This document shows, one piece after another, positions 11,591 to 38,385 of a stretch of 64,000 bases of DNA (positions within the stretch are counted from its first letter, which is position 1; each line of letters begins with the position of its first letter). The position numbers were made by a program, and so were the translations under genes. The stretch comes from a virus: IMG/VR virus record IMGVR_UViG_3300033183_000212, positions 64,001 through 128,000 of that record, one strand, 5' to 3'. The notes under the pieces are model-generated. The model saw only the letters and a list, made by a program, of their open reading frames with translations. It had not been told where the DNA came from and did not search any database.

Positions 11591-11686
11591 TTATTTGGAC
11601 TGAGCTTTTCTCCATGTACACGGTGATTGTTTATTCTTTGGCTCGCACTCAGTGCTTAGTGCTACATCAAAGATAGACTTGTTCAT
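11591..11686 (-). CDS. Small 31-residue protein after the tape measure
   Basis: ATG at 11686 overlaps the stop of the tape-measure gene (TAATG) and the frame ends at TAA 11593-11591. The peptide starts MNKSIFDVAL and is Lys/Gln/Ser-rich with two cysteines. Coupling to the previous gene supports translation. Function unknown. Confidence 0.4.
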   Translation of the reverse strand: MNKSIFDVALSTECEPKNKQSPCTWRKAQSK

Positions 11687-13071
11687 TACCTTGATGGAAA
11701 GTAAGGATCCCACTTATCCATCGGTGTAGGCGGATTCATTACTAACCCTTGGTTGCTAGTAGAAGAATAGTTTCTCACTGAGTTGTCAGAGTTATCCATC
11801 GAAACAACACTAGTGCCGCCACCAGCAAATCCACTAGAAGCATTAAGCTCCTTGATCACTGTAGATGGTAAGTTTCTACCTTGTGTATAGTTCAATTGGG
11901 CTGCAGCGCTTCTACTCATTCCTGCAGCAGCTGCTCTTTCTTGTGCTGTAGGTGGTCGTAATACAGTTTGAGGTGTTCTGAACATCATACGTTCGTATGG
12001 TTTGTTAATGTTCTCTAACCCCTTAAGATGTTTTTCTAATTGATACTCATACGGTAAAGCTTCAGGACCAACATCAACTTTAAAGCCAGGATAATCAGGA
12101 TCATCTTGGTATTGCTTATCAGCTAATGTTTCAGTTCTATTTTTCTTCTGATCATCTTTAATTGCAAAGTACAAAGAACCAGCAATAAGTGCAGCTAATC
12201 CTAAAGGTGACAATACAGCTCCAGCTAGACCTGCAGCGGCCGCAGCACCTGCTTTGCCAAAGCCTAGTCCTAACATTTTAGCAGCTGTACCAGCCAAACC
12301 ACTTAATCCTTTTAAAAGCATTCTAAACGTGGCGCCTGGAGCAAGAATAGCAGCTAGACCGCCTAGTGCCAGTGCAACATTCTTAAACTCATCTAAACTA
12401 GGCATCTCACCTTTAAGCGCTTTATTAATACCAGTGAGTGCACCGTTGATTGTAGTTGTGACACCTTCTAACATTTCTGGCATTGTTGGAATCTCAATTC
12501 CCATCTCTTTTAATCTTGCTCTAGCGTTTTCGCCAATGTCACTGAGCAACTTCTGATTTTCTTTAGTGAGCACAGCACCAATTGCAGCACCAATAATACC
12601 AAACCTCTTACCAAACAACAGACCAATTGCACCAAGCTTTGTTGATCTAAAAGCAGCATCTGCAAGTTCTTTACTTCCCGTTTCAGACTCAACGTAGTCT
12701 GCAATCTCTTGCGCCAATAGACCTAGTGCAACTGCAGGAACACCTCTCATCAGCAAACCTTTACCCAGCGCAGCTGCCGCACCAGCTATACCACCAAGAC
12801 TTGCCAACTTACCAAAGCCGAGACTCGGCATGCTCATCTTTCCAACAGCACCTTTACCTGCAGCCATTGTTCTGCTGAACACCTTTGAGACGCTGGTGCC
12901 GAATCCTATTTTCTTAGACTCTCTATCAGCCTCTAGGTCGTCTAATCTCTTGCCGCTCTCGAGCTTATTGATTCTCGTAATGAACGAACCAATGTTAGAG
13001 CTGAGCTGACTTAGCGTTCCGTTCTGCTCTTGCAGTGTATCGTTAATATCACTTAAAGTTGTAGCTGTCAT
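11686..13071 (-). CDS. Tape-measure-like tail protein
   Basis: 461 residues. An N-terminal coiled-coil part (SDINDTLQEQNGTLSQL, then a charged helix) is followed by Gly/Ala-rich, hydrophobic segments across about residues 70-310, a soluble acidic stretch and a Ser/Asn-rich tail. This make-up, and its place right after a tail-chaperone pair (gp26 and the -1 frame ORF), fit a tape-measure protein that sets tail length inside the tube, the role of T4 gp29 (590 residues). At 461 residues it would predict a shorter tail than T4. Sequence similarity to gp29 was not evident to me. Confidence 0.55.
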   Translation of the reverse strand: MTATTLSDINDTLQEQNGTLSQLSSNIGSFITRINKLESGKRLDDLEADRESKKIGFGTSVSKVFSRTMAAGKGAVGKMSMPSLGFGKLASLGGIAGAAAALGKGLLMRGVPAVALGLLAQEIADYVESETGSKELADAAFRSTKLGAIGLLFGKRFGIIGAAIGAVLTKENQKLLSDIGENARARLKEMGIEIPTMPEMLEGVTTTINGALTGINKALKGEMPSLDEFKNVALALGGLAAILAPGATFRMLLKGLSGLAGTAAKMLGLGFGKAGAAAAAGLAGAVLSPLGLAALIAGSLYFAIKDDQKKNRTETLADKQYQDDPDYPGFKVDVGPEALPYEYQLEKHLKGLENINKPYERMMFRTPQTVLRPPTAQERAAAAGMSRSAAAQLNYTQGRNLPSTVIKELNASSGFAGGGTSVVSMDNSDNSVRNYSSTSNQGLVMNPPTPMDKWDPYFPSR

Positions 13072-13254
13072 TTAAGTTCCTTGTTGCCTTGCCCTTTCGT
13101 TCTTTTCCTTAATGTCTTCAATTAGCATAATCAAGTAGATCTCTCTCTCCCAAGGGAACATCTCTTCGAGTTCTGTTAGAGAATAGTGAAAGTTCTGTAG
13201 TAGTTGAAAGTTCACTTTATAGAAGTTCTCTAAACTATCGTGAGAGAGACACAC
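13072..13254 (-). CDS. Small tail-assembly chaperone-like ORF, probably read as a gp26 fusion
   Basis: About 60 codons, GTG at 13254 overlapping the gp26 stop (TAGTG). NFHYSLTELEEMFPWEREIYL resembles the short 'T' part of tail chaperones (aromatic, then Leu-x-Glu, then acidic helix). The same frame is entered by a -1 shift on the T8 run at the end of gp26, giving a fused product of about 296 residues. The upstream SD-like GGAGGG is too far from GTG (18 bases) for normal initiation but well placed to stimulate a shift. It may also correspond to T4 gp51, which I cannot confirm. Confidence 0.6.
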   Translation of the reverse strand: MCLSHDSLENFYKVNFQLLQNFHYSLTELEEMFPWEREIYLIMLIEDIKEKNERARQQGT

Positions 13255-13961
13255 TAAAAAAAATCGTCGAGGCCCTCCAGTTTTCTTGTATTTTCATGAC
13301 CACACTTTGTACACTTAAACTTCAAGTCATGTGTAAGTTTTGGTAAGTTCATTACAAATTCACTGATCTTCTCAAACTGAGTTGCCGTCAATGAATCGAT
13401 GAACCTTTCAACCTCTTCTCTCGGTTCGTCTTCAATCATGATGTTTTCTTCACCGGACTGAATAGACTCTAGACATGATACGATCAGGTCAATCACGGCC
13501 TGAGTCGGAGAATCAGTGTCCATAAGCTTTGGATCTTTGATGAACATGTCATAGTCAGGATACTTCATCTTAATGGAAATGTCGTCAGTCACCTTGACAA
13601 GCATGTTCTTCTTTTCAACTTCAAGCTTGATCTCTTCAAGATTAAATGTAATCTCGTTTGGTGTGTCACACTCACTACACGCAATACTCAGGTCTGCCGT
13701 TTCACCTACAGACTTTGCCCTGATCTGAGTAAAGGCGTAGTCAACGTCAAACGTTGTCATCTTTTGTGGATTTACACCTTCAACACAGGCACCAATCGTG
13801 TCTAAGATCGATTGTATGATAGCTCTTCTATCTTTCGATTCAAACGCAATCATCAACACCTTCTGCTCTTTGACAAGGAAAGGCCTAAACCTTACTTTCT
13901 TTTGAGTCGAAGGTATGATCATCTCATACTTCGGTGTTGTGTTTAGTTGTGGTAACGCCAT
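13254..13961 (-). CDS. 26: gp26-like baseplate hub/tail assembly protein
   Basis: 235 residues (T4 gp26 has 208). Two cysteine pairs, CSEC at about 95-98 and CTKCG at about 217-221, are arranged as a zinc ribbon; this and the surrounding blocks (RFRPFLVKEQKVLMIAFES near the N-terminus) are typical of the gp26 family. T4 gp26 takes part in assembling the baseplate hub. Immediately upstream of a small chaperone-like ORF and a tape measure, it also occupies the place of lambda gpG. The gene ends in a T8 run that could support a -1 frameshift. RBS AAAGGAG. Confidence 0.75.
   Translation of the reverse strand: MALPQLNTTPKYEMIIPSTQKKVRFRPFLVKEQKVLMIAFESKDRRAIIQSILDTIGACVEGVNPQKMTTFDVDYAFTQIRAKSVGETADLSIACSECDTPNEITFNLEEIKLEVEKKNMLVKVTDDISIKMKYPDYDMFIKDPKLMDTDSPTQAVIDLIVSCLESIQSGEENIMIEDEPREEVERFIDSLTATQFEKISEFVMNLPKLTHDLKFKCTKCGHENTRKLEGLDDFF
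13256..13278 (-). promoter_or_regulatory. Predicted -1 ribosomal frameshift signal
   Basis: Read on the - strand: GGAGGG (13278-13273), nine bases, then eight T (13263-13256), then AG of the stop TAG. In the zero frame this is Asp-Phe-Phe-stop; slipping back one base reads Phe-Phe-Leu-Val and continues in the next ORF. An SD-like element about 10 bases before a slippery run is the arrangement used by E. coli dnaX. Confidence 0.6.
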
Positions 13962-13979: not shown

Positions 13980-14675
13980 TCAACCAAATAATTGTCCAGG
14001 ATTAATGTCTAAAGTCAAGAAGTTTTGCGACGGAGACACTCTCTTCCAGTTTGTGTAAGACAACTGAACAGTCACTCTTACTAATCCGTCTTGTTCGTTT
14101 GTAAAGTCGATCTGTTGTATCGTAGTTGGAAACGCTTCTATCAGTTCAACGCTATACACAGAACCACCGCCTACACCTAGATTGATTCGGATAGGACCAA
14201 TACCTTGAGATAAACCTATGATTGGCTTTCTCAACTGGTGAATCTTTACGGTCTTTGCATAGTCTTTCTTGTATCCAGGTTCATACGTATCGCTGCTGAA
14301 CACTGTCTCCATCCATGCATCAAAGTAGTTCTTTACTCCGTAGTCGTTTAACAGATAGAAAGACATTGTGATGTCATCTACTGCGTAACCGTAACCAACC
14401 TTTTCAAAGACGTTGCCGATTCTTCTTTCATGAGTCATGATCTGCTTACCTGGCATGGTAACAGTTTCACATAGAATATTGAGCTCTCTAGAATTTGATT
14501 GAGGCGCGTCTGAAGTGATACCAGGAATAGACGGAATGAAGTTGGCAAACCTTCCAAGTATTCCTGAAAGAATTCCATTGGCAGAAAGTGTAGGCAGCTC
14601 AACTAAAAAGTTATTGTTACGAGCAAAGCCAAGCTTTGCGGAGGCTATGCCTTTTAGTTCGTCAATCGTTGGCAT
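13980..14675 (-). CDS. 54: gp54-like tail-tube-fold baseplate protein
   Basis: 231 residues. The central block (LNILCETVTMPGKQIMTHERRIG, then DDITMSFYLLNDYGVKNYFDAW) is the gp19/gp54 tube-fold signature and ends with a YTNWKRV strand. Since separate gp19 (58186) and gp48 (16584) are present, gp54, the tube initiator, is the best fit by elimination, though it is shorter than T4 gp54 (320). Its ATG overlaps the stop of the upstream gene. A second tube-like function cannot be excluded. Confidence 0.65.
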   Translation of the reverse strand: MPTIDELKGIASAKLGFARNNNFLVELPTLSANGILSGILGRFANFIPSIPGITSDAPQSNSRELNILCETVTMPGKQIMTHERRIGNVFEKVGYGYAVDDITMSFYLLNDYGVKNYFDAWMETVFSSDTYEPGYKKDYAKTVKIHQLRKPIIGLSQGIGPIRINLGVGGGSVYSVELIEAFPTTIQQIDFTNEQDGLVRVTVQLSYTNWKRVSPSQNFLTLDINPGQLFG

Positions 14676-37297: not shown

Positions 37298-38385
37298 ATT
37301 TTTTTCCTGCACTGAAACAAACAAATTCTAGATAATTTATCCGGATCTGTAAATGATTCTAGGATATCATTATTGTATAGTTTCGTGTTGAGTATTTCAC
37401 TTAAGGAAAAATTATGTAAGGAGTATTTTGATATATCGTCTATGAACTGCTTATAGACGTTATTTGCTCCTCCAGCTGCTTGCATGTTAGATGCCGAGTA
37501 TTCCATTGGTATTGCTTTCCAGTAACAACACGGTTTTACAATTCCTTCTACGGTAATATGTAAAGATTTTGAATTGAAAAACGCACAAGATATTTCTGGT
37601 GGGTTGTCAAAATTTTTAACTAAATTAGAATATGATTTTAAAGTTCTGTGATCCCTTAATCTTCTAATTGTTGTTCTGTTAAAATCAATGAAATCTTGGT
37701 TTGAGTTACTTCCTGCTTGTTCTAGCATCTCTTCTTCCCCCTTCTCGTTTATGAAGTTTAAAACAGGACCATAAAAAAATCTTGTTGATTGAATGATTTC
37801 ATGTTCTGTTGCACCATGGTCTTTACATATTTTTTTTATTTCCTCAACATGATCTTCATTGTGTTTAAACAAGACAGTAAATGTTTTTATTCGTGCCTTT
37901 GTTAGCGACAGAGTTTCCATATTTCTTAATATTTTATTAAGGTTGGTACCTCTTCTATATTTTTCATGCATTTCCTGATTAATGCCGTCAATATCAAATG
38001 TAACCTTTAACTTTTCACCGCATAAAATACCTAATTCCCACCAAAAATCTTCATCACGTATTGATCCATTTGTTGCAATTGATACTGTACCCCAACCATC
38101 TACCATATTTTCACAACAATACTTTATTATCTCATAAATTTCCGGATTCATTAATGGGTCGCCGTATGTACCAGAAAAATGAATATTATATAAGTGTCTT
38201 AAATCGGCCGGAGTAAAAAACTTCTTAAAATTTTCTAAGGACATGTGACTTGGTCTAGGTGCTTGTGGGTGTAAGCCTAAACCTTCTATATTTGTCCTTG
38301 CGCATTGCATACACTTTGCGTTGCAGTGAGTAGATATCTCTATAATCAATTGTAATTTTAAATCTGTATATAGTTTATGCCACAT
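37294..38385 (-). CDS. Radical SAM enzyme with SPASM-like C-terminus
   Basis: 363 residues. The CxxxCxxC motif at 21-28 (STHCNAKCMQC) binds the [4Fe-4S] cluster that cleaves S-adenosylmethionine. Other radical-SAM elements follow: NIHFSGTYGDPLMNP with the glycine-rich SAM-binding turn, and VSIATNGS. The C-terminus has extra cysteines (SCAFFN, KPCCYW, ICLFQCRKK), as in SPASM or twitch domains with auxiliary clusters. Such enzymes modify peptides or sugars; flanked by glycosyltransferases, either is possible. Overlaps both neighbours by a few bases. Confidence 0.8.
   Translation of the reverse strand: MWHKLYTDLKLQLIIEISTHCNAKCMQCARTNIEGLGLHPQAPRPSHMSLENFKKFFTPADLRHLYNIHFSGTYGDPLMNPEIYEIIKYCCENMVDGWGTVSIATNGSIRDEDFWWELGILCGEKLKVTFDIDGINQEMHEKYRRGTNLNKILRNMETLSLTKARIKTFTVLFKHNEDHVEEIKKICKDHGATEHEIIQSTRFFYGPVLNFINEKGEEEMLEQAGSNSNQDFIDFNRTTIRRLRDHRTLKSYSNLVKNFDNPPEISCAFFNSKSLHITVEGIVKPCCYWKAIPMEYSASNMQAAGGANNVYKQFIDDISKYSLHNFSLSEILNTKLYNNDILESFTDPDKLSRICLFQCRKKI

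Follow-up and report, generated by a model that had tools for sequence, protein, structure and literature searches.

The window analysed here, a 64,000-nucleotide stretch (positions 64,001 to 128,000) of the 146,617-base IMG/VR virus record IMGVR_UViG_3300033183_000212, carries on its minus strand the gene order tail tube, gp26, a short -1-frame extension and a large ORF, an order that is consistent with a tail chaperone. The tail tube protein (13980..14675; phrog_45, E 2e-32) is encoded 5' of gp26, the putative short tail assembly chaperone TAC-N (13254..13961; 0 frame, 235 aa, 27 kDa). The extension (13072..13257), the candidate TAC-C or 'gp51' piece, comprises 61 codons after the predicted slip and a stop. 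It is followed by a 461-aa ORF (11686..13071), which is a candidate tape measure by position and is homologous to the Phage C48C1 ORF at the corresponding location (E 1e-15); the equivalent ORF of Vibrio phage K566 matches the tape measure family phrog_4200 (E 5.8e-7). The sequence-only reading had placed the junction before the tape measure. The gene order fits this placement, but a family search with the window's 461-aa ORF gave no direct tape-measure match. In P-HM1 (L003 3839-5719), the large ORF after gp51 has a VanY-type peptidase domain (E 1.6e-9), and this domain was undetected in the 461-aa counterpart of the window.

On the minus strand the junction reads ...CTGGAGGGCCTCGACGAT TTT TTT TAG TGT GTC..., and gp26 ends with the codons CTG GAG GGC CTC GAC GAT TTT TTT TAG. 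The T-run spans 13263-13256, with seven T's 5' of the gp26 TAG (13254..13256) and the eighth T as the first base of that stop. The slippery heptamer T_TTT_TTT (13257..13263) abuts the 0-frame stop, and GGAGGG, an SD-like putative stimulator (13273..13278), lies 5' of it across a gap of nine bases (13272-13264). A -1 slip on the heptamer would give TTA GTG TGT CTC... and continue for 61 codons until the TAA at 13074-13072. The predicted fusion, ...LEGLDDFF-LVCLSHDSLENFYK..., would have 235 + 61 = 296 aa (34 kDa), and LEGLDDFFLVCLSHDSLENFYK is the predicted junction-spanning peptide of this product. The sole nearby start for the extension in the window is the GTG of TAGTG, which overlaps the stop and has GGAGGG 18 nt 5' of it. 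Most of what had been read from the sequence at this site was borne out: GGAGGG (13278-13273) lies nine bases upstream of the T-run, a -1 slip enters the ORF at 13072-13254, and the GTG of that ORF has no properly spaced ribosome-binding site. The description 'eight T directly before TAG' was right in that the run abuts the stop, but only seven T's precede it and the eighth lies within TAG. The combination GGAGG-N9..12-T7 occurs at one site in the window, compared to 0.08 expected. T8 runs by themselves were no commoner in the window than expected (2 against 5.9), and their abundance was dropped as evidence for frameshifting; the only other such run is at 37830-37837 on the plus strand.

Conservation of the slip site and the SD-like element

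Junctions were gathered from IMG/VR and INPHARED phages, with hosts that include Prochlorococcus, Synechococcus, Pelagibacter, Sinorhizobium, Rhizobium, Stenotrophomonas, Aeromonas and Vibrio. T_TTT_TTN was found in the right frame in all 94 distinct non-T4 junctions (last base T in 54, C in 32, A in 6 and G in 2) and in register in all 230 junctions of a second, later-fetched set. In 142 of these 324 junctions (32/94 and 110/230) the motif stops at six T's with a C next, which makes it a poor template for slippage by RNA polymerase. The codon before the Phe pair of the heptamer is always NNT (log10 P -18 given the amino acids, with ancestry ignored) and the first Phe is encoded by TTT without exception (log10 P -13, computed from the codon usage of these genes and again ignoring ancestry). 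Of 36 FF sites elsewhere in these genes, only 3 have the motif. The 0-frame stop lies 0 or 3 nt past the heptamer in 90 of the 94 relatives. In L002, L073 and L090 it is well 3' of the slip site (24-27 nt where counted), and the short form therefore has an extra C-terminal tail. Conservation of the -1-frame peptide sets in at the slip site, with the pattern FF...LsHd.L.nyYktNF...PWERe.

The window GGAGGG forms an anti-SD duplex of -9.8 kcal/mol, compared to a mean of -5.4 for synonymous versions. Across the relatives, mean anti-SD pairing was -6.2 kcal/mol against -5.17 for synonymous versions (sd of the mean 0.13; 0 of 60 simulations), and fresh loci gave -6.32 against -5.22 kcal/mol (sd 0.21). 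The SD-like element is conserved beyond synonymous expectation, and the fresh loci confirm this. Conservation of the T-run and of the SD in related phages, which the sequence-only reading had named as checks on its proposal, was thus found for both, the SD being stronger than in synonymous versions in either set. The spacing of 9 nt in the window falls within the range of 9-14 nt that a review gives for SD elements of known -1 shifts (PMC5009743).

RNA structure downstream of the heptamer

The 126 nt past the slip site are more stable than synonymous versions (mean z -2.7, with 71% below -2). The same folding test gave -0.4 to -1.2 elsewhere in gp26 and -0.5 after the folded segment was shifted by 30 nt. 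Short downstream segments of 50-80 nt gave a weak signal (mean z -1.3 to -1.5), compared to -2.9 at 120 nt. RNAalifold on all 90 aligned sequences returned no consensus structure; averaged pair probabilities alone revealed one long-range register, helix P1, in which positions 9-19 of the -1 ORF pair with 104-114 (position p being window base 13258-p). In the window, the 5' arm TCTCTCTCACG (13239..13249, minus strand) begins 7 nt past the heptamer in the conserved register and 6 nt past it in an alternative one. The 3' arm CTTGGGAGAGA (13144..13154, minus strand) lies in the PWERE codons and pairs with 13249-13239 at 10 of 11 positions. The alternative register, shifted by the CU/GA repeat, is slightly more stable in the window (-31.6 vs -29.0 kcal/mol). 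An Rfam scan of window positions 12900-13500 gave no match, including to the frameshift element families.

Sequences formed on average 8.63 of the 11 P1 pairs, compared to 7.24 (sd 0.12) in synonymous versions, and at least 9 pairs were present in 54 of the 90 sequences (20 expected). In 52 fresh non-redundant loci outside the P-SSM2 type, a set that is independent of the discovery of P1 though phylogenetically related, the mean was 9.37 against 7.74 (sd 0.20), with at least 9 of 11 pairs in 36 loci (15.9 expected). Two wobble-wobble pairs of P1 covary among 127 sequences: pair 9-114 (CG 70, UA 20) and pair 12-111 (UA 49, CG 43, UG 12). Pair 9-114 ranked first of 946 wobble-wobble pairs by excess pairing and showed 11 CG/UA switches on the gp26 tree. 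For P1, none of the 500 shuffles and none of the slid registers reached the percentage of paired cells, the double-change cells or the covariation score; drift in base composition can produce part of such a covariation signal. A sign test on independent tree pairs for 9-114 (3.8 same, 0.0 opposite, p 0.125) pointed in the right direction but was underpowered. Two inner helices had weaker support than P1. RNA structure at this position is therefore under selection beyond the encoded peptide, as the excess over synonymous versions shows in both sets.

In most marine relatives P1 is a long-range 11-bp helix that closes a multibranch loop, its arms about 95 nt apart. P-SSM2-type phages have in its place a local 11-bp hairpin that starts 6 nt past the heptamer (first 45 nt, mean -12.5 vs -5.2 kcal/mol, sd 0.5), and about a third of the loci show neither structure clearly. 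Loci L054, L265 and L160 and those of WSSN type (e.g. L312) keep the slip site and have a broken P1 (for example through GAACGTGAA in the 3' arm). Since about a third of the sequences are without P1, the RNA structure could be thought to have nothing to do with the shift and to serve another role, such as stabilizing the mRNA or controlling the gene that follows; this would come in addition to a frameshift, not in its stead. We consider such a role unlikely, because the signal is lost on a 30-nt shift and is weak elsewhere in gp26, because the folds start 6-7 nt past the heptamer, the usual position of a stimulator, and because this position is taken up by one or the other of two unlike structures, depending on the lineage.

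gp26 and gp51 in T4 and in the relatives

Window gp26 matches PF12322 T4_baseplate (E 3.5e-61) and phrog_150 (E 8e-62). For the 61-codon extension, one match is to phrog_634, 'baseplate hub assembly catalyst' (E 2.8e-23), and another is to the final 50 positions of phrog_150 (232-282), starting where the gp26 match ends; phrog_150 thus covers both window pieces end to end. T4 gene 51 is on the strand opposite to gene 26. T4 gp51 also belongs to PF12322 (E 4e-52) and is related to T4 gp26 (BLASTP 2e-6) and to the gp26 profile (hhalign probability 96.9). Its C-terminal piece, which is homologous to the window extension (2e-6), is joined in frame to a gp26-like domain. The matches of the extension to phrog_634 and to the end of phrog_150 arise because T4 gp51 consists of a gp26-like domain and this same C-terminal piece. 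On this architecture gp26 and gp51 would be the short and long tail assembly chaperones, and, judged by homology, T4 encodes the two forms as two genes. T4 gp26 (M77695, L013, about 1380-1427) ends in ...GLKEFFELL with the non-slippery codons GAG TTC TTT GAG, and the FF at the homologous place is possibly a vestige of a lost frameshift site.

An AlphaFold2 model of window gp26 had a pLDDT of 86.6. In a Foldseek comparison with the PDB, the highest probability among the matches listed was that of the HK97 chaperone 2ob9 (0.47), a weak match below significance (E 1.5 over 61 columns), and a PDB sequence search gave no match. Window gp26 also has two CxxC pairs (C95, C98, C217 and C220) that are near-invariant in its group and, in our alignments, absent from the homologues of P-SSM2-type cyanophages; the pattern suggests a zinc site.

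Cyanophage gp51 has been described as being without about 200 N-terminal residues compared to T4 gp51 (PMC3037559). This resemblance to a truncated T4 gp51 would be explained if cyanophage 'gp51' is the piece that the shift adds to gp26; its start would then be wrong in several records. Public records start gp51 internally (L001 3090-3194; L002 3049-3183; L003 3678-3839), well past the conserved beginning of the -1 frame, and the proteins are shortened by the annotation.

The second ORF could instead encode a separate small protein, restarted by translational coupling at the GTG in TAGTG with the aid of GGAGGG. TAGTG is indeed present in the window, an ATG or GTG lies within 18 nt of the stop in 38 of 157 relatives, and some records annotate gp51 from such starts. 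However, in 113 of the 157 non-redundant loci no ATG, GTG or TTG lies within 18 nt, even though conservation of the peptide begins at the slip site, and of the 44 candidate starts just 1 is preceded by an SD at 5-15 nt. A -1 ORF that is conserved yet mostly startless is evidence against simple restart. The slippery heptamer is moreover invariant, GGAGGG lies as far as 18 nt from the GTG, and T4 joins these two pieces in a single continuous protein, all of which makes restart very improbable, though in the window, with its overlapping GTG, the sequence taken alone would also allow it. Transcriptional slippage, in which RNA polymerase would add or drop U's on the T8 run and join the frames in the mRNA, is hardly credible: T8 is a possible substrate, as mentioned for such motifs (PMC4066793), but 142 of the 324 junctions read six T's then C, and the conserved SD-like element and downstream mRNA structure implicate the ribosome.

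Proposed frameshift and comparison with known systems

We therefore return to a -1 frameshift joining gp26 to the next ORF with an SD-like stimulator, as the sequence-only reading had predicted with lambda G/GT and dnaX as parallels, for which the comparative data argue strongly; part of the comparative signal reflects shared ancestry. It is very probable that one T4-like phage gene yields both tail chaperone isoforms through a -1 frameshift on T_TTT_TTT. Most ribosomes would terminate at TAG and give the 235-aa gp26 (TAC-N). A fraction would probably be paused by pairing of GGAGGG with 16S rRNA and by the downstream RNA structure, and would slip one base back on T_TTT_TTT to read 61 more codons, producing the 296-aa gp26-gp51 fusion (TAC-NC). 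To judge from lambda gpG/gpGT, these two proteins may coat the tape measure and recruit the tail tube protein during assembly. We infer both the slippage and its efficiency, as well as the stimulation by the SD-like and RNA elements and the chaperone role. U_UUU_UUU and U_UUU_UUC are among the efficient -1 motifs in E. coli (PMC4066793).

The tail assembly chaperones of T4-like phages were identified by Vladimirov, Gautam & Davidson (2022, Virology 566:9), according to excerpts of papers that cite this work (PMC10885494, PMC12846349). The available text of PMC12846349 says that T4-like TAC-N genes carry poly-T slippery signals, and that of PMC10885494 reports that some T4-like phages have a separate short gene and a long fused gene instead of a frameshift. 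The initial view that a frameshift was undescribed for gp26 of T4-like phages was, going by these excerpts, wrong. Our locus belongs to the same gene family as T4-like genes 26/51, in which the excerpts place a poly-T -1 frameshift in several groups, whereas T4 itself encodes the short form in gene 26 and the long form in gene 51. What is added here is this genome, the RNA structures and the analysis of the SD-like element. The frameshift in this gene family is thus already known, while putative stimulators conserved beyond synonymous expectation appear undescribed.

The arrangement predicted here resembles that of lambda gpG/gpGT and other long-tailed phages, in which a -1 shift close to the 3' end of the gene 5' of the tape measure, in the window a candidate ORF, makes the short and long chaperones; no sequence relation to lambda is shown here. 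The accessible part of one review says that the lambda G/GT products act on the tape measure as tail assembly chaperones and mentions no downstream RNA stimulator for lambda (PMC5009743). E. coli dnaX has a similar layout, with an SD-like element about 10 nt 5', a slippery heptamer and an RNA structure after a short spacer, but its heptamer is A_AAA_AAG, not T_TTT_TTT, and its RNA structure is a simple 11-bp stem-loop where P1 is a long-range helix; the local hairpin of the P-SSM2 type is closer to the dnaX stem-loop than P1 is. IS911 of the IS3 family has, in the same part of that review, a branched downstream stimulator, a three-way junction with constituent stem loops (PMC5009743), but differs in its transposase gene, A-run motif and unrelated sequence. 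The TAC frameshift of Vandenendeviridae/Andersonviridae (phage Adele), as far as the available text of PMC12846349 describes it, follows the same logic with a GTTTTT motif, but concerns different phage families, and RNA structure is unmentioned in that text.

A partial literature search found no conserved RNA structures at the T4-like chaperone slip site. On balance, our alignments favour the view that the chaperone site of marine T4-like phages carries an undescribed stimulatory cassette, made up of the SD-like element and a covarying long-range helix, the latter swapped for a local hairpin at the same spacing in P-SSM2-type cyanophages. If this is true, phages of one family retain a recoding event while exchanging its RNA stimulator. 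If the RNA structures do stimulate the shift, abundant marine phages would provide a natural series in which one frameshift is combined with different RNA folds.
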